From Tardiphaga robiniae (GTDB lineage: Bacteria; Pseudomonadota; Alphaproteobacteria; Rhizobiales; Xanthobacteraceae), in contig NZ_LVYV01000034.1 of the NCBI RefSeq assembly GCF_001618955.1, positions 62,001-126,000 of the forward strand: a DNA stretch of 64,000 nt, in the 5' to 3' direction. A program made the position numbers and the translations under genes. The notes under the pieces are model-generated. The model saw only the letters and a list, made by a program, of their open reading frames with translations, was not told the origin of the DNA and ran no database searches. Numbering within the stretch: position 1 is the first letter of the stretch; each line of letters starts with the position of its first letter. Shown here piece after piece: positions 18,503 to 29,046 of this stretch.

Positions 18503-19633
18503 TTGAGCGGCCCGACTTTGGAACAGATCGCGAAAGGCGACGGCTTGGCGCTATGCGCGGCTGGGTCGTGGACGGCTCGTTTTGCCCCCGCGCTCGAAAA
18601 ACTCGTCGGCGAGGCCGAAAAGCTGACCGGTAGCCGCCCCAACATCTTCATCGACGTGTCGCAGGTCTCCAAGCTGGATACATTCGGCGCCTGGCTGATC
18701 GAGCGGTTGCGTCGGGCGCTGACCAATGGCGGCCACGAGGCGCAGATCGCGGGCCTTTCGGCGAATTACGCGACCCTGGTCGACGAGGTCCGCCGCGTGA
18801 AGCCTGCGGTCCCGTTACCGGCAAGCGGTAGCGCCTTGACTGCCGTGCTCGATGGCATCGGCCGCAATATCTATGGCATCGGGGAAACCCTCGTCGCGCT
18901 GGTCGATATGATTGGTGCCGTGATCGCGGCTTGGTTCCGCGTCTGGCGGCATCCGTCGAAATTCCGGCTCACCTCGGTGGTGCATCACCTGGAGCAGGTG
19001 TGCTGGAACGCAGTACCGATCGTGGTCCTGATCACCTTCCTGATCGGCTGTATCGTAGCCCAGCAGGGTCTGTTCCATTTTCGCCGCTTCGGCGCCGACG
19101 TCTTCGTGGTCGATATGCTCGGCGTGCTGGTGCTGCGTGAGCTCGGCGTGCTGCTGGTGGCGATCATGGTCGCCGGCCGGTCCGGCAGCGCGTACACAGC
19201 CGAACTCGGCTCCATGAAGATGCGCGAGGAGATCGATGCGCTTCGCACCATGGGCTTCGATGCCATCGAAGTTCTGATCCTGCCGCGCATGGTGGCGCTG
19301 GTGCTGGCGCTGCCCATTCTCGCATTTCTCGGCGCGATGGCTGCGCTCTATGGCGGCGGTCTGGTCGCCTGGCTCTATGGCGGAGTCGATCCATCGTCGT
19401 TCCTGTCGCGTCTGCGCGAGGCGATTTCGATCAACCACTTCATAGTCGGAATGGTGAAAGCGCCAGTGATGGCCATGGTGATCGGCATCGTGGCTTGTGT
19501 CGAAGGCCTGGCCGTGCAGGGCAGTGCGGAGTCGCTGGGGCAGCACACCACGTCATCGGTGGTGAAGGGAATCTTCTTTGTGATCGTGATGGATGGTGTG
19601 TTCGCGATCTTCTTCGCATCGATCGGGATCTGA
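18503..19633 (+). CDS. mlaE: MlaE-family ABC permease with N-terminal STAS domain
   Basis: 376 residues. Residues 1-110 form a STAS domain (IFIDVSQVSKLDTFGAWLIE), the role played by the separate MlaB in E. coli. Residues 120-376 are the MlaE permease, with HPSKFRLTSVVHHLEQ, LREL and the glycine-rich GSAYTAELGSMKMREEIDAL loop. It forms the inner-membrane channel of a phospholipid transporter maintaining outer-membrane asymmetry. The start is TTG with CGGGAG six bases upstream. First gene of the mlaEFD operon; only 5 bp separate it from mlaF. Confidence 0.93.
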   Translation: MSGPTLEQIAKGDGLALCAAGSWTARFAPALEKLVGEAEKLTGSRPNIFIDVSQVSKLDTFGAWLIERLRRALTNGGHEAQIAGLSANYATLVDEVRRVKPAVPLPASGSALTAVLDGIGRNIYGIGETLVALVDMIGAVIAAWFRVWRHPSKFRLTSVVHHLEQVCWNAVPIVVLITFLIGCIVAQQGLFHFRRFGADVFVVDMLGVLVLRELGVLLVAIMVAGRSGSAYTAELGSMKMREEIDALRTMGFDAIEVLILPRMVALVLALPILAFLGAMAALYGGGLVAWLYGGVDPSSFLSRLREAISINHFIVGMVKAPVMAMVIGIVACVEGLAVQGSAESLGQHTTSSVVKGIFFVIVMDGVFAIFFASIGI

Positions 19634-19638
19634 CGGCC

Positions 19639-20451
19639 ATGACCTCGACGACTGCGACGCCCATTACTGAGACGCCGACGGGTGCTGCCTCCACCTCTGC
19701 CGATGCGATCATCAGCGTGCGCGATCTCACGGTGGCGTTCGGCAGCCGTCGGGTGCTCGACGGCCTCAACCTGGACGTGGCGCGCGGTGAGATCCTCGGT
19801 TTCGTCGGTGCATCGGGAGCCGGCAAGTCCGTGCTGATGCGCACGATCATTGGCCTCGTGCCGAAAGTCTCCGGCACGATCGAGGTGTTCGGCACTGATC
19901 TCGATGGCGGCGACAAGGAACGCCGCGATGTCGAGCGGCGCTGGGGCATCCTGTTTCAGCACGGGGCGTTGTTCTCGTCACTCAACGTGCGGCAGAACAT
20001 CCAGTTTCCGGTGCGCGAATATCTCAAGGTCTCGGAGCGTCTGCTCGATGAGATCACCATGGCCAAGCTCACCATGGTTGGTCTCAAGCCCGAGGTGGCG
20101 GATCGCTATCCGTCGGAACTGTCGGGCGGCATGATCAAGCGCGTTGCGCTGGCGCGGGCGCTCGCGCTCGATCCGGAGATTGTGTTCCTGGACGAGCCGA
20201 CATCGGGTCTCGATCCGATCGGCGCTGGCGATTTCGACGAATTGGTGCGCACGCTGCAGCGAACTTTGGGGCTGACCGTTTTCATGGTAACTCATGATCT
20301 CGACAGCCTGCATACAGCCTGCGACCGGATCGCCGTTCTCGGTAATGGCAAGATCATCGCGCAGGGAACGATGGCCGACATGCTGGCCTCGCAGCATCCC
20401 TGGCTTCGGGAATATTTCCACGGCAAGCGCGCACGCGCTGTTATCGGCTAG
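19639..20451 (+). CDS. mlaF: MlaF-family ABC transporter ATPase
   Basis: 270 residues. Walker A GASGAGKSVLMR, signature LSGGMIKRVALARAL, Walker B IVFLDEPTSGLDP and the H-loop VTHD are intact. A 25-residue Thr/Ala-rich leader precedes the ATPase domain. It powers the STAS-permease/MCE system with its neighbours. The ATG follows the mlaE stop by 5 bp. Confidence 0.93.
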   Translation: MTSTTATPITETPTGAASTSADAIISVRDLTVAFGSRRVLDGLNLDVARGEILGFVGASGAGKSVLMRTIIGLVPKVSGTIEVFGTDLDGGDKERRDVERRWGILFQHGALFSSLNVRQNIQFPVREYLKVSERLLDEITMAKLTMVGLKPEVADRYPSELSGGMIKRVALARALALDPEIVFLDEPTSGLDPIGAGDFDELVRTLQRTLGLTVFMVTHDLDSLHTACDRIAVLGNGKIIAQGTMADMLASQHPWLREYFHGKRARAVIG

Positions 20452-20470
20452 TTGTATTGGAGTTGGTTTG

Positions 20471-21397
20471 ATGGAAACGCGGGCGAACTTCGTCCTGATC
20501 GGAATTTTCACGCTGGCGGTGATCGCCGCAGCGTTCGGCTTCGTGTTGTGGTTCCAGAATCTGCATTCGACTACGCAGCGCACGCCGCTGCGCATCATTT
20601 TCGAAGGCGCGGCGTCGGGCCTGCGCAACGGCGGCAATGTCAATTTCAATGGTATACGGGTCGGTGAAGTCGTCTCGGTGAAGCTCGACAATCCCAAGCG
20701 CGTCGTCGCGCTAGCGATGGTCGAGAATATCGCGCCCATTCGCAAGGACACACAGGTCGGCCTGGAATTCCAGGGGCTCACGGGTGTAGCGGCGATCGCG
20801 CTGAAGGGCGGTGATGAAGCTGCGCCCGCGGTGCCGCTGGATACCGACGGCGTGCCGGTGCTGACGGCCGATCCGGAGCTGCTGCGGGATATTTCGGAAT
20901 CGATCCGCGCGACGCTCAACAACGTCAATCGTCTGGTCGCCGACAATCAGGAAACCCTGAAAGGTGCGATGAAGAACGTCGAGACCTTCACGGCGACGCT
21001 GGCGAAGAATTCTGAAGTGATCGACGGCATCATGCTCAAGATCGACAGCGTGATGGGCAAGGCCGATGGGGTCATGGGCAAGGCCGATAGCGTCGTCGCG
21101 CGAACCGACAATATCCTGCTCGGCCTCGATGCGCTGGCGGGCGGCAAGGACGGCGGCGAACTCACGGCGGCCGTGAAGTCGTTCCATGAGCTGACCGAGA
21201 ACCTCGACAAGCGTTCCGGCGCATTGATGCTCGATGGCCGCCGTACCCTCGCGGATATCAGCCGTGCCGTGAACAATCTTGACCGCAACCCGACGCGTCT
21301 GTTGTTTGGCGCCAGCAGCGGCACACCCGCGGCTGCGCCTGCATCGGCGGCGCCTCCGGCACCCGCTGCTCCGCCGCGTCGTCGCCAAGCTCAATAG
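20471..21397 (+). CDS. mlaD: MlaD/MCE-family lipid-binding protein
   Basis: 308 residues starting METRANFVLIGIFTLAVIAA, an N-terminal membrane anchor, then an MCE domain (about 40-115: GLRNGGNVNFNGIRVGEV, VGLEFQGLTGVAAIALKGG). A long helical region follows, with repeated KIDSVMGKADGVMGKADSVV heptads, and a Pro/Ala-rich C-terminus ending in RRRQAQ. MCE proteins form hexamers that carry phospholipids across the periplasm. No MlaC or auxiliary lipoprotein gene follows; the next gene is an epimerase. Confidence 0.92.
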   Translation: METRANFVLIGIFTLAVIAAAFGFVLWFQNLHSTTQRTPLRIIFEGAASGLRNGGNVNFNGIRVGEVVSVKLDNPKRVVALAMVENIAPIRKDTQVGLEFQGLTGVAAIALKGGDEAAPAVPLDTDGVPVLTADPELLRDISESIRATLNNVNRLVADNQETLKGAMKNVETFTATLAKNSEVIDGIMLKIDSVMGKADGVMGKADSVVARTDNILLGLDALAGGKDGGELTAAVKSFHELTENLDKRSGALMLDGRRTLADISRAVNNLDRNPTRLLFGASSGTPAAAPASAAPPAPAAPPRRRQAQ

Positions 21398-22854: not shown

Positions 22855-25800
22855 TTAGCCCAGCCGACCTGCTGCATGCGCGAGCAGGGTGTAGACCAGA
22901 CCCGTTTCCGAGGTCAGATGGCTGCGCAGCGCTGCCGGGCCGCGTTCATCGCGGGCGACTTCGTCGAGCAGGCGTTCGAACTCAGTGATGTAGCGATCCA
23001 CCGTGCCCTTGAAGTTGCGGTCCGACCGATACTTGCGGGCGACTTCATCGAAAGCCTTCTGGCCGGCGGGCGTATAGAGCCGCTTGCTGAAGGCCTTGCT
23101 CTCGCCGCGCTGATAGCGATCCCACATTTCAGCGGCCAGCGTACGGTCCATCAGGCGGCCGATGTCGAGTGACAGAGACTCCAGCGGATTGGCCGAGGCT
23201 GCAGGCTGCTGCGGAGCCGGTGCGCGGCGCGGCGGCGTGCGATCTTCTTCGACGTGATCGGCACGGCCGAGCAGATCCGACAGCCAGCCGTCACGGCCCT
23301 GGTCGGAGTTGGCTGGAGCGACCGACGGCGCTTCGGTGCGACGCGGGGCGGGGCCACCGATATCGGGCATCGGCAGGCTCGACGATGCGCTGCGGGCCGG
23401 CGGCTCCTCGCGGCGCGGGGCCGGACGCGGAGCCTCGTGGCGCGCTTCACTACGGCTGCTGGCGATCGCCATCGCAGGCTCCTCGTCACGCTGCACGCTG
23501 GTGGTGCGGCTGGTCGAGACCACGTCGAGGCCGCGGCCGTGGCGTGCGACGATGCGGTTGAGCTCGGCGAGCGCCTCGATCTGGTCGACGATCACCTTGC
23601 GCATCTGCGCAGTGCTCTCGGCGGCTTCCTGCGGCATGTCGAGAACGCCACGGCGCAGTTCGGTGCGGGTGCTCTCGAGCTCGTTGTGCATTTCGGCAGC
23701 CATCTGCTTCATGCTGGCGACCATCGACGAGAACTTGTCGGCCGACTGCTTGAACATGGCATCGGCTTCCTGCGTGCCCTGCTGGTAGATTTCGCTCATG
23801 GCTTGCGTTGTCGCGCGGCGCTCTTCTTCCGCGGCGGTGCGGACGGCTTCGAACTGCCGGCTGATCGCTGCCGAGCCCTGACCTGCGGTCTCCGCGACGA
23901 CGCGGGCGATGTCGCGGGCACGCTCTTCAGCGGCTGCCAGCGATTCATCGAGCAGGCCGGTGAAGCGGGTGAGGCGTTGATCGAGATCGGTGGTGCGCAG
24001 ATCGATGGTGGTGACCAGCGATTCCAGCGCGGCCTTGCGCTCGCCGACCGACGACATCGTGGTGCGGTTGCTCTGTTCGACCAAAGCCGCGGCATCCACG
24101 AGGGCGTGGCCATGGGTTTCGAACTGGCCCGAGAGCGAGCCGAGATCTTCCAGAGCCTTCGACGTCTTGGAGGTGAACACGGTGAGCTGTTCTTCCAGCG
24201 TCTGGGTAGCCAGGCCGTTGCGCGACGTCACGTCGTTCATGGTGGACACGAAATCTGCCACGCGGGTGACCAGAGCGCGCTCCAGCGAGTTGAGATTGTC
24301 GTGGGCGCCGGTGAGGACTTCCTGCAGCAGGATGTTGCCTTCACGCAGGCGTTCGAACAGCGCCACGGTATCGGTGCGCAGGATCTTGCTGGTTTCCTGC
24401 ATCTCGGTGACCGCAGTGATAGAGACCTGACGCGACTGCTCGATGGCGGTGCGCGAGCTCTGCTCGAGATCCTTCAGCGACTTGTTGACCGCACCGGTGG
24501 CAAGTTCGCCGGCCGTGGTGATCGCGCGAGCCACGTCCGTGCTGTTGGTGACCATGGTCTGCGAGAAGGTCTGGCCGCGGCTCTCGATGGCCTTGAGCGC
24601 GTCGGCGGTGACGCGATCGATATCGACCGTGAGCTGATTGGCCTTGGCGCCCAGCGCGTCGACGAGCGAACCGCGCTTGGCGTCGACCATCTGCGACAGG
24701 CGGTCGGTCTGCTGCTGCACGTAGGTGACGATTTCGTCGGTCTTGCCGGTCATCGTGGTGCCGAAGCTGCCCGAAGCGGCGAACACCGACCGCTCGATCT
24801 CCGACGAGGTGGTCTTGATCTTGGTGGTGATTTCGTTCGAGGCGGCGACCAGCGAGTTGTGCGCATTCTGCGCACTGGTCTGGATGTTGTCGGTAGTGTT
24901 GGCAGTGACGTTCGAGAGCGAACGCTCGATGTCGGCGGAGATCACCTTGATCTGGCTTGCAGCATCGGCCGACGAGGTCGCCAGCGAGGTCTGCACTTCG
25001 CGGGCACTCGACAGGATGGCAGCGGCCGTATCGGCGCCGACGGCGGTGAGCGTGCGCTGCACGTCGATGGAGAGCGACTTGACGTGGTTTGCCGCGTCCG
25101 ACGATGCATTGACCAGGGTGCTCTGGGCTTCGCGAGCGCCGGCAACGATCGATTCCGCGGTCGCGGTGCCGGCGGTCGTGAGGCTGCGTTCCATGTCGGC
25201 CGCGAGGTTGCGGGCGTGGTTCGACGCTTCGGTCGAGGCGTCGATCAGCGAGGACTGGACGTTGCGCGTGCTGGCCAGGATCGAGTCCGCGCTGGCGGTG
25301 CCGGCGGCGATCAGTGTGCGCTCCACGTCGGCCGCAAGGGTGCGGACCTGCTGCGAGGCGTCAGTCGATGCGGCGACCAGTGTGCTCTGCGCGGCGCGGG
25401 CGCCGGACAGGACCGAGTCGGCCGTCGCCGTGCCGGCGGCAGTGAGCGTGCGTTCGATATCGGCCGAGAGCGATTGGATCTGGCTGGCGACTTCCGAAGA
25501 GGTGGCGACCAGTGTCGACTGGGCGTCGCGGGCACCTGAGAGCATCGAGGCAGCTGTGGCTGAACCGGCCGCAGTGAGGGTGCGTTCGACATCGGCCGAT
25601 AGCGACTTCACCTGCAGCGAAGCTTCCGAAGACGCGTTGACCAGTGTGGCCTGCGCATCGCGGGCGCTGTTGACGATGGCCGTGGCGGCAGTGGTGCCGA
25701 CAGCGGTCAGCGAGCTCTCGATATCGGACGCCGTCAGCTTCAGCTGCGCGCCGACATCGGTCGAGACAGACACGAGGGATTCCTGCGCGGCGCGGGCGCC

Positions 25801-28272
25801 GGCCTGAATGGTCTCGCTGGTATTGACCATGAGATGCGTGAGCGAACGTTCGGCGTCCTCGACATTGGTCTTGATGCCGATCGAGAGTTCTTCGGCGCGG
25901 GCCATGAGCGAGTCGCTGGCCGTGCGGCCGGAGGTTTCGATACGGCCGGCAACGGCCTCAATGCGCGAGCCGAGCAGTTCCTCGAACTGTTCGACGCGGG
26001 TTTCGATCCCGCCGGCAACAATGCCGATACGACCTTCCATGCCGTCGTGGATCGTCTGGAAGCGCGCAGTGATGGTATCCGCGAACTGTGTGCTGCGGCT
26101 GTCGATGGCATCGGTGACGTTGTTGATGCGGCTGTCGATGGCCGTGATCGCCTGCGTCGTGCCTTCGGTGAGCGAGCTCGTGAAGTAGGAAAGGCGGTCG
26201 TCGATCGAGTGGATCGCCTGCACGGCGCCTTCCGTGAGCGCGGTGGTCAGGTGGGTCAGGCGGCCGTCGACCGAGCTGACTGCGAGGTTCGCGCCTTCGG
26301 TCAGGGCGGTGGTCAGATGCGTCAGGCGCGCGTCGACCGACTGGACGGCCTGGTTGGCACCTTCCGAGAGCGTCGATGCGAGGTTTTCAAGACGCGTATC
26401 GATGGTCGCGGTGACCGATTGCGCCCGAGCGTCAAACGTTTCTTCAAGGCTCTTGAGACGTCCATCGACGGTCTCGTCGAACGACTTGATCCTGGTGTCG
26501 AGCGACGCATCGAGATTGACGACGCGGCCTTCGAATTTGGTCTCGAATTCTGCGAGGCGGGTGTCGAGCGACGACGTGATGCCCCCGACATTGGACGCGA
26601 CGCGGGTGTCGAAATTATCGACATAGGTCTTCAGCGTCTCCGAGATGTCCTGCGTGCGCTGACCCAGGCGATCGACGACTTCGCCGCCGAAGGTCTTCAC
26701 GGTGCGGTCGAATTCCGAGATGTGCTTGGTGATGAGCGCCCCAAGCGTGCCGCTGTCGCGCGAGAAGCGCTCGGCCAGCTCGCTGCCCTGTTCCTTCACC
26801 AGTTCGTCGAAGGCGTTCATCTGCAGGCTGATGGTGTCGTGCGCGGTTTCGGTCTGGCTCGCGACCTTGGCCACCAGTGCGTTGACGGTGGCGTCGAGGG
26901 ACTCGCCCGCCTTGTCGCCTGACGTGAGGATCTGGTTGGCCAGGCGGTTGCCGGCATCGTCGATCTTGCTGACGAGGTCGCCGCTGCGCAGCTCGAGTTC
27001 GAGCAGCAAGGAGTCGCTGGAATTCTTAAGCGAGTCGTGGACCTGCTCGGTGCGATCCGACACGCGATCGACAATCGTGGACGAACGCTGTTCGAATTCG
27101 CTGGTGATGCGGTCGATACGCTCGTTGAGCATTTCGTGGACGCGGTCGGCGAGATCGACGAACTCGTCGTGCACGTGGCCGGTCTTGAAGTTGAGGCTCG
27201 TCGTCAGACGCTCGCTGGCGTCGAGCACCGCGCGGGTGGTCTCGGCGCTGGCCTCTTCGAGGCGGTCGAGCAGGTCGCCGCCACGCTCGCCGAGTGCGAG
27301 GATCATGTTGTCGCCGGCGTTGCCGAGCGCACGGGTGATGTGTTCGCCGCGCTCTTCCAGCGCACCGGTGATGCTCTTGGCGACTTCATCGACGCGCGAT
27401 GCGATGGCGTCTGAAATCAGTGCGATGTCGTGGCGGAGATCGATCTGCACGCCTGAAATGGCGGAGCGAACCTGCTCGGCCTGACCGACCAGGTTGTCGC
27501 GCTGATGCGCGATGTCCTGCAGCAGCGCGCGGATACGGACTTCGTTGTCAGAGTAAGCGCGCTCGAGCGCGGAAACTTCGTTGGCGACGAGGGTTTCGAG
27601 TTCGCCGGCACGCGCAATCGCGCGCTCGACGCCGTCGCCCATCGCGGCGACTTCGCGGCGGATCGCCTGGCCGACCGTGACCATCGAGTCGCTGGCAGTG
27701 CTTTCGGGCTCGGAGAAGCGAATCGCGACCTGTGCCATCGACTGGGCGATCAGGCGCATTTCCTGGCCGCGCCAGGCGAGGCTGGCGAGGAAGTAAAACA
27801 GCAAGATCGGGGCGAACAGCAGCGCAGCAAGGCCAGCCAGCGCCAGCGTGCCGCCGGAGCCCTGACCGATCAGGGCCTGCAGCGACGGCAGGAACGCAAC
27901 GGTCAACAGGCCTGCGCCGACGATCCACAAGCCGGCGAACAGGGTGGCGAGCGTATAGACGTTGCGGGCGGGGCGGTTCTTCTGCAGCGCCTGCAGGATC
28001 TGGCCGATGGTTTCGCGGTCATCGTTCGCGGGACGGCGCCCAAAGCGCTGATCGTCCTGAGGCTCGAAGCCCGGGCGATCATTGGTGATGCGTGCGTCGA
28101 AGGCGTTGTCGTCGAGGTCGATGGGGGAAGATGGATTGGCGGGAGCGTTGTCGGCACGGATCGCGGGTTGATCGCGATCGACATGCGCGGGGTCACTGAT
28201 GTTGAGTGCTTCCTGGATGGCAGAGAGCGCGACTTCGGTCGGATCCTTGGCCTTTTTGGTGTTGTTTGCCAT
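22855..28272 (-). CDS. gpr: Giant coiled-coil membrane protein, likely Growth Pole Ring (GPR) homologue
   Basis: 1805 residues. The N-terminal 100 are polar and acidic, and are followed by two transmembrane helices (about 104-128 and 142-167). Residues about 200-1600 are almost wholly helical coiled coil. Within this, residues about 602-733 hold six 22-residue repeats (pattern VDxRLxxLxxxLxEGxxxAxxS), and about 826-1168 hold eight 44-residue repeats (ARxAQSTLVxASxxA..), twice the 22-residue unit, as in apolipoprotein A1/A4/E-like domains. A Pro/Arg-rich linker leads to a conserved-looking globular C-terminus (last about 100 residues). This matches Agrobacterium GPR, an apolipoprotein-like protein that forms a ring at the growing pole in Hyphomicrobiales; TipN-like scaffolds are an alternative. 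The start MANNTKKAKDPTEVAL is preferred over upstream frame extension. Confidence 0.75.
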   Translation of the reverse strand: MANNTKKAKDPTEVALSAIQEALNISDPAHVDRDQPAIRADNAPANPSSPIDLDDNAFDARITNDRPGFEPQDDQRFGRRPANDDRETIGQILQALQKNRPARNVYTLATLFAGLWIVGAGLLTVAFLPSLQALIGQGSGGTLALAGLAALLFAPILLFYFLASLAWRGQEMRLIAQSMAQVAIRFSEPESTASDSMVTVGQAIRREVAAMGDGVERAIARAGELETLVANEVSALERAYSDNEVRIRALLQDIAHQRDNLVGQAEQVRSAISGVQIDLRHDIALISDAIASRVDEVAKSITGALEERGEHITRALGNAGDNMILALGERGGDLLDRLEEASAETTRAVLDASERLTTSLNFKTGHVHDEFVDLADRVHEMLNERIDRITSEFEQRSSTIVDRVSDRTEQVHDSLKNSSDSLLLELELRSGDLVSKIDDAGNRLANQILTSGDKAGESLDATVNALVAKVASQTETAHDTISLQMNAFDELVKEQGSELAERFSRDSGTLGALITKHISEFDRTVKTFGGEVVDRLGQRTQDISETLKTYVDNFDTRVASNVGGITSSLDTRLAEFETKFEGRVVNLDASLDTRIKSFDETVDGRLKSLEETFDARAQSVTATIDTRLENLASTLSEGANQAVQSVDARLTHLTTALTEGANLAVSSVDGRLTHLTTALTEGAVQAIHSIDDRLSYFTSSLTEGTTQAITAIDSRINNVTDAIDSRSTQFADTITARFQTIHDGMEGRIGIVAGGIETRVEQFEELLGSRIEAVAGRIETSGRTASDSLMARAEELSIGIKTNVEDAERSLTHLMVNTSETIQAGARAAQESLVSVSTDVGAQLKLTASDIESSLTAVGTTAATAIVNSARDAQATLVNASSEASLQVKSLSADVERTLTAAGSATAASMLSGARDAQSTLVATSSEVASQIQSLSADIERTLTAAGTATADSVLSGARAAQSTLVAASTDASQQVRTLAADVERTLIAAGTASADSILASTRNVQSSLIDASTEASNHARNLAADMERSLTTAGTATAESIVAGAREAQSTLVNASSDAANHVKSLSIDVQRTLTAVGADTAAAILSSAREVQTSLATSSADAASQIKVISADIERSLSNVTANTTDNIQTSAQNAHNSLVAASNEITTKIKTTSSEIERSVFAASGSFGTTMTGKTDEIVTYVQQQTDRLSQMVDAKRGSLVDALGAKANQLTVDIDRVTADALKAIESRGQTFSQTMVTNSTDVARAITTAGELATGAVNKSLKDLEQSSRTAIEQSRQVSITAVTEMQETSKILRTDTVALFERLREGNILLQEVLTGAHDNLNSLERALVTRVADFVSTMNDVTSRNGLATQTLEEQLTVFTSKTSKALEDLGSLSGQFETHGHALVDAAALVEQSNRTTMSSVGERKAALESLVTTIDLRTTDLDQRLTRFTGLLDESLAAAEERARDIARVVAETAGQGSAAISRQFEAVRTAAEEERRATTQAMSEIYQQGTQEADAMFKQSADKFSSMVASMKQMAAEMHNELESTRTELRRGVLDMPQEAAESTAQMRKVIVDQIEALAELNRIVARHGRGLDVVSTSRTTSVQRDEEPAMAIASSRSEARHEAPRPAPRREEPPARSASSSLPMPDIGGPAPRRTEAPSVAPANSDQGRDGWLSDLLGRADHVEEDRTPPRRAPAPQQPAASANPLESLSLDIGRLMDRTLAAEMWDRYQRGESKAFSKRLYTPAGQKAFDEVARKYRSDRNFKGTVDRYITEFERLLDEVARDERGPAALRSHLTSETGLVYTLLAHAAGRLG
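24769..25797 (-). repeat. Eight tandem 132-bp (44-codon) coding repeats
   Basis: Within the giant coiled-coil gene, eight successive units begin ARAAQ, ARDAQ, ARDAQ, ARAAQ, TRNVQ, AREAQ, AREVQ and AQNAH, and most share S.D.ERTLTAAG near residue 30 of the unit. Divergence is moderate, so these are old repeats kept for structure rather than a recent expansion; the last unit is shortened and grades into non-repeat helix. Confidence 0.85.
26100..26467 (-). repeat. Six tandem 66-bp (22-codon) coding repeats
   Basis: Units start with V/I-D-x-R (VDGRLKSL, IDTRLENL, VDARLTHL, VDGRLTHL, IDDRLSYF, IDSRINNV). Two adjacent units share LTHLTTALTEGA exactly. The unit is half the 44-codon repeat at 24769-25797. 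Confidence 0.8.
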
Positions 28273-28668
28273 GCTCGTTCCACGCCCCCTGATTACGCAA
28301 CTGACACAGAAGTCCCCACGATTCGTTCCCGCCTGCAGCATAACGACTGGCCATGTGCACCCCGCGGGACGAATTTCGGACTGCCGGTCGCTCGGCTTGT
28401 CCGCTACTTCCGCAAACATCCTATTGGCTTGGTCGCGCGAATGAAATGGTTCTGGTTAAGACATTCTTAATGATAGTTAACGGCTTGCCGCGGTAACTTC
28501 TTGTGGTACCTCAAATAAACGGAATGGCCCCTCAATCGTGGCGAGTTTGCGTCAAAACTGCGTCAACCCGGCGGATTGTACCTAGAACGTTCCGTTAACC
28601 AATTCCGTGTTTGGCTGCAAAAAATCGCAGCCGGATCGTTCGGTTGGCGGGAATTTGGGCCATCATCA
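28273..28668. other. Divergent promoter region between the GPR-like and Hpt genes
   Basis: 396 bp without a supported gene. It is AT-richer than its surroundings at 28440-28620 (for example TTAATGATAGTTAACGG), as expected for promoters serving both directions. No known sigma-factor box can be assigned with confidence. Confidence 0.4.
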
Positions 28669-29046
28669 ATGCCGCTTCATCTCGAACGGGTTCAATGGAT
28701 GCCGTCACCGCCGCTGGTTCCCGATGACGGACCGATCGATTTCCCCCACCTTCAACGTATGACTATGGGCGATAGCAGCCTGGAACGTGAAGTTCTGGCG
28801 ATGTTCGCGGCCCAGTCGAGCGAGTTGATCGAGAAGATCGTCAAAATGCCGGCGGATGTGGCTGAGCTCACGCACAAGCTGAAGGGCTCCGCGCAGGCGG
28901 TCGGCGCGTTCCGCATCACGGAAGCCGCCGAGTGGCTGGAAAGTGCGCTGCGCGACAACATCGATACCGCTGAGGCCCTGATGACGCTCACCGACGCCGT
29001 TCTCGAGGCGCGGGCGGAGATCGACGTCCTTCTGAAGCGGTCCTGA
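28669..29046 (+). CDS. Histidine phosphotransfer (Hpt) domain protein
   Basis: About 125 residues ending in LLKRS. A four-helix Hpt domain covers residues 30-120, with the phospho-accepting histidine in LTHKLKGSAQAVGA. It relays phosphate between histidine kinase receiver domains and a response regulator; partners are not in the window. The start is uncertain: 28669 (MPLHLERVQW) and 28699 (MPSPPLVPDD) both fit. An alphaproteobacterial ChpT-type role is not supported because there is no catalytic-like second domain. Confidence 0.8.
   Translation: MPLHLERVQWMPSPPLVPDDGPIDFPHLQRMTMGDSSLEREVLAMFAAQSSELIEKIVKMPADVAELTHKLKGSAQAVGAFRITEAAEWLESALRDNIDTAEALMTLTDAVLEARAEIDVLLKRS

Follow-up and report, generated by a model that had tools for sequence, protein, structure and literature searches.

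A probable GPR/RgsE-type pole scaffold in Tardiphaga robiniae and its apparent kinship with TipN

How bacteria that grow from the pole and have no MreB place their growth zone is a question that is raised by one very long gene in the window, by which we mean the whole stretch of 64,000 nucleotides analysed here. The original prediction took its product for a homologue of the Growth Pole Ring protein (GPR) of Agrobacterium. Marks of the GPR/RgsE kind are a ring of six copies or a focus at the pole that grows, and a loss of rod shape in its absence. Is the window protein one of these, or is it a pole marker of the TipN type, an apolipoprotein-like lipid binder, or simply a long coiled coil? The features from which an answer can be put together are as follows.

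22855..28272, minus strand: gpr/rgsE-type gene, 1805 aa (frame from ATG 28272 to the stop at 22855; Pfam; alignment with the S. meliloti protein)
27493..27987, minus strand: N-terminal module, residues 96-260, with two membrane helices and a conserved juxtamembrane segment (hydropathy; S. meliloti alignment; profile comparison)
23635..27705, minus strand: proline-free helical rod, residues 190-1546, hydrophobic period 3.665 (composition, period and stripe analysis)
25933..26526, minus strand: 22-residue repeats, residues ~583-780 (self-comparison)
24709..25764, minus strand: eight 44-residue repeats, residues 837-1188 (self-comparison)
23503..23760, minus strand: conserved rod-end segment, residues 1505-1590, with D-M/L-P-x-E-A (relatives' alignment)
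23203..23502, minus strand: proline-rich linker, residues ~1591-1690, with a W..DLL motif (composition; motif by eye)
22858..23184, minus strand: C-terminal helical domain, residues 1697-1805, kin to the end of an 882-aa protein of C. vibrioides (profiles, model)
28576..29046, plus strand: divergent Hpt-domain gene adjoining gpr (PF01627, 1.4e-8; longest frame, so that the true start may lie inside)

The 1805-residue reading frame, described earlier without its strand, is confirmed and lies on the minus strand. It extends upstream to a further ATG at 28419, but ATG 28272 is favoured because a start of the type MANN/I..KKAKDPTEVALSAIQEALN is seen in six same-genus copies (L027, L028, L030, L032, L046 and L047), the comparison being confined to same-genus copies whose first 40 residues contain MANN/I..KKAKDPTEVALSAIQEALN whole. 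The long plus-strand ORFs inside the gene are probably shadow frames of G+C-rich coding DNA. The protein has a single match in its own genome, and the viral contigs searched held no relative of it.

The architecture that had been claimed was borne out. Hydropathy averaged over 19 residues exceeds the threshold of 1.5 in segments starting at 105-118 and 138-151, as expected of the two N-terminal membrane helices; by a simple hydropathy rule such a pair occurs in 168 of 188 proteins, and among the 20 without one are ORFs truncated where a contig stops. Read by eye, the six 22-mers are contained in the 22-residue block at ~583-780, and the eight 44-mers occupy residues 837-1188. When the sequence was scored against itself at each offset with BLOSUM62 and compared with shuffles, residues 561-720 gave 2.27 at offset 22 (shuffle mean -0.60, sd 0.18) and residues 801-1130 gave 2.46, 2.26 and 2.26 at offsets 44, 88 and 132 (shuffle mean -0.20, sd 0.12), or ~16 and ~22 shuffle deviations over the mean. 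The C-terminal domain is present too, helical and made of the last ~105 residues. Pfam places PF01442 (Apolipoprotein) on the protein in 7 stretches with 194.6 bits against a cut-off of 90; no other Pfam model, and nothing in NCBIfam, scores above its cut-off.

The kinship with GPR was approached through the protein of S. meliloti, in place of Atu1348 itself. A tblastn search of a plasmid collection with the last 181 residues returned 4 records of Sinorhizobium and 1 of Shinella, with identities of 43-44% and coverages of 86-92%. One of them, from S. meliloti Ak57, is 3.7 Mb long although its title says pSymB; the CDS matched there, named 'kinesin', has 2089 aa, which is the published length of RgsE (PMC7327166); the two are equated here by species and length, not by the locus tag SMc00190. 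Between this protein and that of the window, 90 of 219 residues are identical in the N-terminal region (41%; score 425, maximum of 200 shuffles 76) and 100 of 257 in the C-terminal region (39%; score 393, maximum of 200 shuffles 78), and BLASTP of the whole window protein gives 235 bits. The rods are 25% identical, a figure that two rods of the same period may reach without close kinship. PF01442 scores 257.8 bits in the S. meliloti protein. Both ends, PF01442 and an Hpt neighbour thus speak for the claimed homology. Since homologues of RgsE have been published for all Rhizobiales families, with distant ones in Emcibacterales and Rhodospirillales (PMC7327166), the window protein adds to an already known kind; taken alone, it is an ordinary member of the GPR/RgsE family.

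A synteny comparison had also been proposed, and it yielded the divergent Hpt-domain gene, which the window shares with S. meliloti and with 27 of 31 order loci. When the Hpt protein of the window was searched for, an Hpt-like ORF was found beside gpr, always divergent and upstream, in 13 of 14 same-genus loci and 14 of 17 others of the order. Among loci from other orders it was found at 8 of 73, and among the 84 of Caulobacterales type at none. The literature search turned up no paper on an Hpt gene together with RgsE, and this neighbour is here brought to attention. Farther off, at 18503-21397 on the plus strand, lies a lipid transport cluster with an MlaE-type permease, an intervening ORF and an MlaD protein; in the fetched flanks an MlaD-like ORF, never gpr itself, occurs at 18 of 31 order loci, 12 of them from the same genus and 6 not, and at 12 of 73 elsewhere. 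No MreB (PF06723, E <= 1e-60) was found in G000 or in the 4 other order genomes of the class sample; its absence in G000 is counted in favour of a GPR-type role, because it is expected where growth is polar. Across the class, MreB is found in 350 of 385 genomes and in 142 of the 155 carriers of the C-terminal domain, a count that comes from a hand-transcribed cross-match of two tables. For Rhizobiales it has been published that Rgs proteins and MreB exclude each other; extended class-wide to this domain, that rule fails.

The C-terminal domain is also found outside the order. The search for relatives used the C-terminal 181 residues as query, and an alignment of 16 order sequences (A1) matched 147 of the 385 genomes in the class sample. 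All 107 loci that were read carry the domain close to the C-terminus of one ORF or more (108 ORFs in all), which is not an independent count because the loci were picked from matches. A wider profile of 79 rows without family f115 (A5) matched 284 of 297 genomes in the order (249 of 254 good ones), nearly all with a single match per genome, and 155 of 385 in the class sample (128 of 315 good ones), with 66 families outside the order. Pfam and NCBIfam scans of the 79 members gave nothing convincing (best E 0.001 and 0.0047, to models that look unrelated). Predicted models reach a pLDDT of 82.6 for the window domain and 94.1 for that of C. vibrioides, and a fold search of the PDB matched neither at E <= 0.001; the likeness of the two models is not independent evidence, because the window model used 28 Caulobacterales-type rows besides itself. 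The best PDB hit by sequence profile, an endolysin-STING fusion at 0.0037, was taken as chance. MamY (NF040997) reached at best 0.0055, in two of the 79 members, and was found in 0 of 24 genomes, where the MamY control was silent too; the telomere resolvase PF16684 was found in 0 of 297 order genomes.

There are a number of irregular copies. Two same-genus genomes carry a second scrap of the domain ~2.3-3.2 kb downstream of gpr (L022:12152-12520 and G004:C11:82944-83066), one with an internal stop, perhaps a decayed partial duplicate. ORFs of 318-402 aa that match the domain weakly (L226-L230) occur in families f73 and f124, in genomes that also have a long one; L120:4142-5131 (f74) is a 330-aa version with two helices, and in L091 (G428) a TAA interrupts the match. 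Order genomes without a match include G054, G096 and G131, which are all three sampled from f36, and G086, G153 and G226 of f23; since G054, G086, G153 and G226 are 99-100% complete, the domain must there be lost or strongly diverged.

The domain leads to Caulobacter. A profile of three f115 proteins (A2) matched 80 of the 89 genomes of that family, and in a scan of named genomes 80 of 94 confirmed loci were kept, the first being that of C. vibrioides DSM 9893 (L144); the titles of the 80 read Caulobacter, Phenylobacterium, Brevundimonas, Caulobacteraceae or Caulobacterales, or are bins labelled Alphaproteobacteria, Proteobacteria or bacterium. The DSM 9893 protein has 882 aa counted from the first Met. 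As TipN has 882 aa (PMC13170164) and combines a large coiled coil with a pair of membrane helices at its N-terminus (PMC9178275), the C. vibrioides protein is very probably TipN, judged by species, length and architecture. Against 28 Caulobacterales-type rows from the named-genome scan (A4), A1, which holds order sequences only, gave 97.6% (E 3.9e-12, 64 columns) and A5 98.6% (E 1.3e-15); A5 is surely without f115 and may include other Caulobacterales, a weakness of which A1 is free. Searched against the whole C. vibrioides genome, A5 found the 882-aa protein best (7.3e-11; next 0.038). The N-terminal module behaves alike: the order profile against that of Caulobacterales gave 97.4% (E 9.1e-12) with four order-profile controls at 0.1-0.5%, and one control, class-rest against reversed Caulobacterales, was unclean at 31.5% (E 5e-4).

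Single sequences point the same way, most clearly at the C-terminus. Against the 882-aa protein the window's C-terminus scores 98 (shuffle maximum 49) and its N-terminus 84 (62); for S. meliloti the scores are 62 (42) and 79 (61). In phmmer searches of a set of only three sequences the C-termini reached the C. vibrioides protein at 4.5e-9 (window) and 4.1e-4 (S. meliloti), and a single membrane module searched against that protein gave no match (E 3 for the window, best domain 0.011; E 3 for S. meliloti). An HMM of the order's membrane module picked up 47 of the 73 class-rest proteins and 30 of the 84 of Caulobacterales type; for an HMM of the post-rod region the figures were 11 and 13, and neither found any reversed Caulobacterales sequence. 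In the literature, PMC8546619 mentions a GPR-TipN 'similarity' without detail and PMC13170164 terms TipN 'analogous'; no description of a domain common to GPR/RgsE and TipN was found in the literature searched, which did not cover the 2019 GPR paper. That 230 of the 385 class genomes have no domain match agrees with the statement in PMC5182065 that most alphaproteobacteria are without TipN; the carriers nevertheless fall in many more families than PMC7327166 reports for RgsE.

What sets the order apart is the rod. Residues 190-1546 form a proline-free run of 1357 residues, for which simple arithmetic, with one stretched helix and 0.15 nm per residue, gives a length of ~200 nm. The hydrophobic period, taken over the longest proline-free run, lies at 3.65-3.685 (11/3) in 22 of 24 order proteins, the exceptions being L040 (3.625) and L042 (3.61); these 24, 8 of them same-genus, come from 25 of the 31 loci, six same-genus ones having been left out and one run being too short. 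None of 80 proteins from outside the order (10 of f115 and 70 of the 73 class-rest) has the 11/3 period; for 77 of them the value is 3.55-3.635, with many at 3.57. Each of the 104 peaks rises above 100 shuffles. In 13 of 14 same-genus orthologues the run is 1357, 1379, 1401, 1445 or 1467 residues long, that is, 1357 plus 0, 22, 44, 88 or 110; the fourteenth, L029, was left out as an ORF without membrane helices (probable frameshift; run 1178). The hydrophobic stripe keeps its phase from ~300 to 1290 (~990 residues), at -118 to -143 degrees over nine consecutive 110-residue blocks, and coherence is absent in the first block and past residue 1290. Over residues 190-1189 one of the eleven positions is 95% hydrophobic, another 62% and the other nine 4-25%, and the rod holds 2.4% lysine with a net charge of -72. 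It looks like a hendecad coiled coil, to which a narrow stripe would be better suited than to a lipid sheath.

The same rod may be read as an apolipoprotein-like lipid binder that lies on the membrane or gathers lipids at the growing pole, a hypothesis already published for Agrobacterium GPR (PMC8262873). The 11-residue period speaks for it, as do the PF01442 scores of the window protein, of the S. meliloti protein and of the order member L035 (301.9 bits). The hydrophobic stripe, however, takes up ~3 of 11 positions, and together with the scarce lysine and the strong negative charge this argues the other way, as an argument from composition made without an apolipoprotein as yardstick. In relatives from outside the order the same ends sit on rods of other periods, mostly near 3.57, and none of 7 such proteins scanned matches PF01442 at E <= 0.01. 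We find lipid binding doubtful, and the amphipathic membrane-lying helices of the original prediction are not favoured because the stripe looks narrow.

A second alternative would make the protein a new-pole marker of the TipN type, concerned with division memory and flagellum placement rather than with growth. Both of its ends are related to the C. vibrioides protein, and contacts with Tol-Pal have been published for TipN (PMC7403779) as well as for RgsE (PMC7327166). The original prediction had counted a best reciprocal match to TipN against itself; the window protein is indeed kin to the probable TipN, but the RgsE-length protein is far closer. A TipN pattern of ~880 aa with a ~400-residue rod is likewise not what is seen in the window (1357 residues, period 3.665); of 10 proteins from the Caulobacteraceae-type family none has the giant 11/3 rod, and no Hpt neighbour was found at the 84 loci of the Caulobacterales-type group. 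A marker role in place of growth organisation is thus distinctly unlikely, although GPR and TipN do not shut each other out, the probable TipN being itself related to the family at both ends. Hardly credible is a generic coiled coil (SMC-, kinesin- or ZorA-like) whose likeness to GPR would lie in helix periodicity only: it could draw on a weak NCBIfam match to ZorA (3e-7; 29 bits, where the cut-off is 190) and on the PLSDB name 'kinesin' of the S. meliloti gene, but the kinship is carried by the non-repetitive ends, whose order is the same throughout the ORFs read, and nearly all of the 284 order carriers have a single match.

We therefore hold it highly likely that the window protein is a GPR/RgsE orthologue, a single-copy, membrane-anchored pole scaffold that most likely marks the growing pole. 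Its homologues have been localised to the growth pole and linked to rod shape (PMC8262873, PMC7327166), and the RgsE of Brucella is located at the new pole (PMC9938171); as their homologue, the window protein is expected to act as organiser of the growing pole, where it would gather the envelope-building machinery. The N-terminal hairpin would anchor the scaffold in the inner membrane, the very long cytoplasmic rod, as a hendecad coiled coil, would space the anchor from the C-terminal helical domain, and the latter, borne on the flexible proline-rich linker, would dock a partner. Partners reported for RgsE are TolQ, RgsA and RgsS (PMC7327166). In GPR the last 115 residues lie beyond the Pro-rich region 1890-2000, and loss of the last 10 residues impairs complementation whereas loss of 221 abolishes it (PMC8262873). 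The domain is likely the docking part, because deletions of 10 residues (part of it) and of 221 and 332 (all of it) cost GPR function, and it offers a reason for these phenotypes. Foci still form with the deletions of 10 and 332 and are lost with that of 221 in depleted cells, and the 332 deletion keeps more function than the 221 deletion (PMC8262873); a simple docking reading does not explain this difference. GFP fused to the C-terminus is likewise reported to disturb GPR (PMC8262873).

On sequence grounds, the results suggest that two separately studied pole organisers, RgsE/GPR and TipN, descend from one ancient family. Going further, we lean towards a history in which an alphaproteobacterial pole scaffold with a membrane hairpin and the unnamed C-terminal domain gave rise to both. 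In Hyphomicrobiales its rod would have been rebuilt from 11-residue units, with length changes by full repeats, as polar growth replaced growth driven by MreB, and a link between scaffold and phosphorelay would run through the divergent Hpt gene. The shared domain joins two literatures and raises a testable question, namely whether it docks the same partner in both, RgsE and TipN having each been published to touch Tol-Pal (for TipN, PMC7403779).

Among known systems, apolipoproteins A1/A4/E (PF01442) resemble the window protein in their 11-residue periodicity and in a score above the cut-off; unlike them it is membrane-anchored, 1805 aa long and apparently narrow-striped, and the match in periodicity does not show common descent. 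With TipN, as represented by the 882-aa C. vibrioides protein, it has the N-terminal membrane module and the C-terminal domain in common, in the same order; the 882-aa protein is half as long, has a rod period of ~3.59, is without a Pfam match, and no Hpt neighbour was found for it. RgsE of S. meliloti and GPR (Atu1348) share with it the two membrane helices, the PF01442 rod, the Pro-rich linker and the C-terminal domain, and in S. meliloti also the divergent Hpt neighbour and ends that are 41% and 39% identical; from both it differs in being shorter, 1805 aa against 2089 and 2115, and in having 22- and 44-residue repeats of its own.
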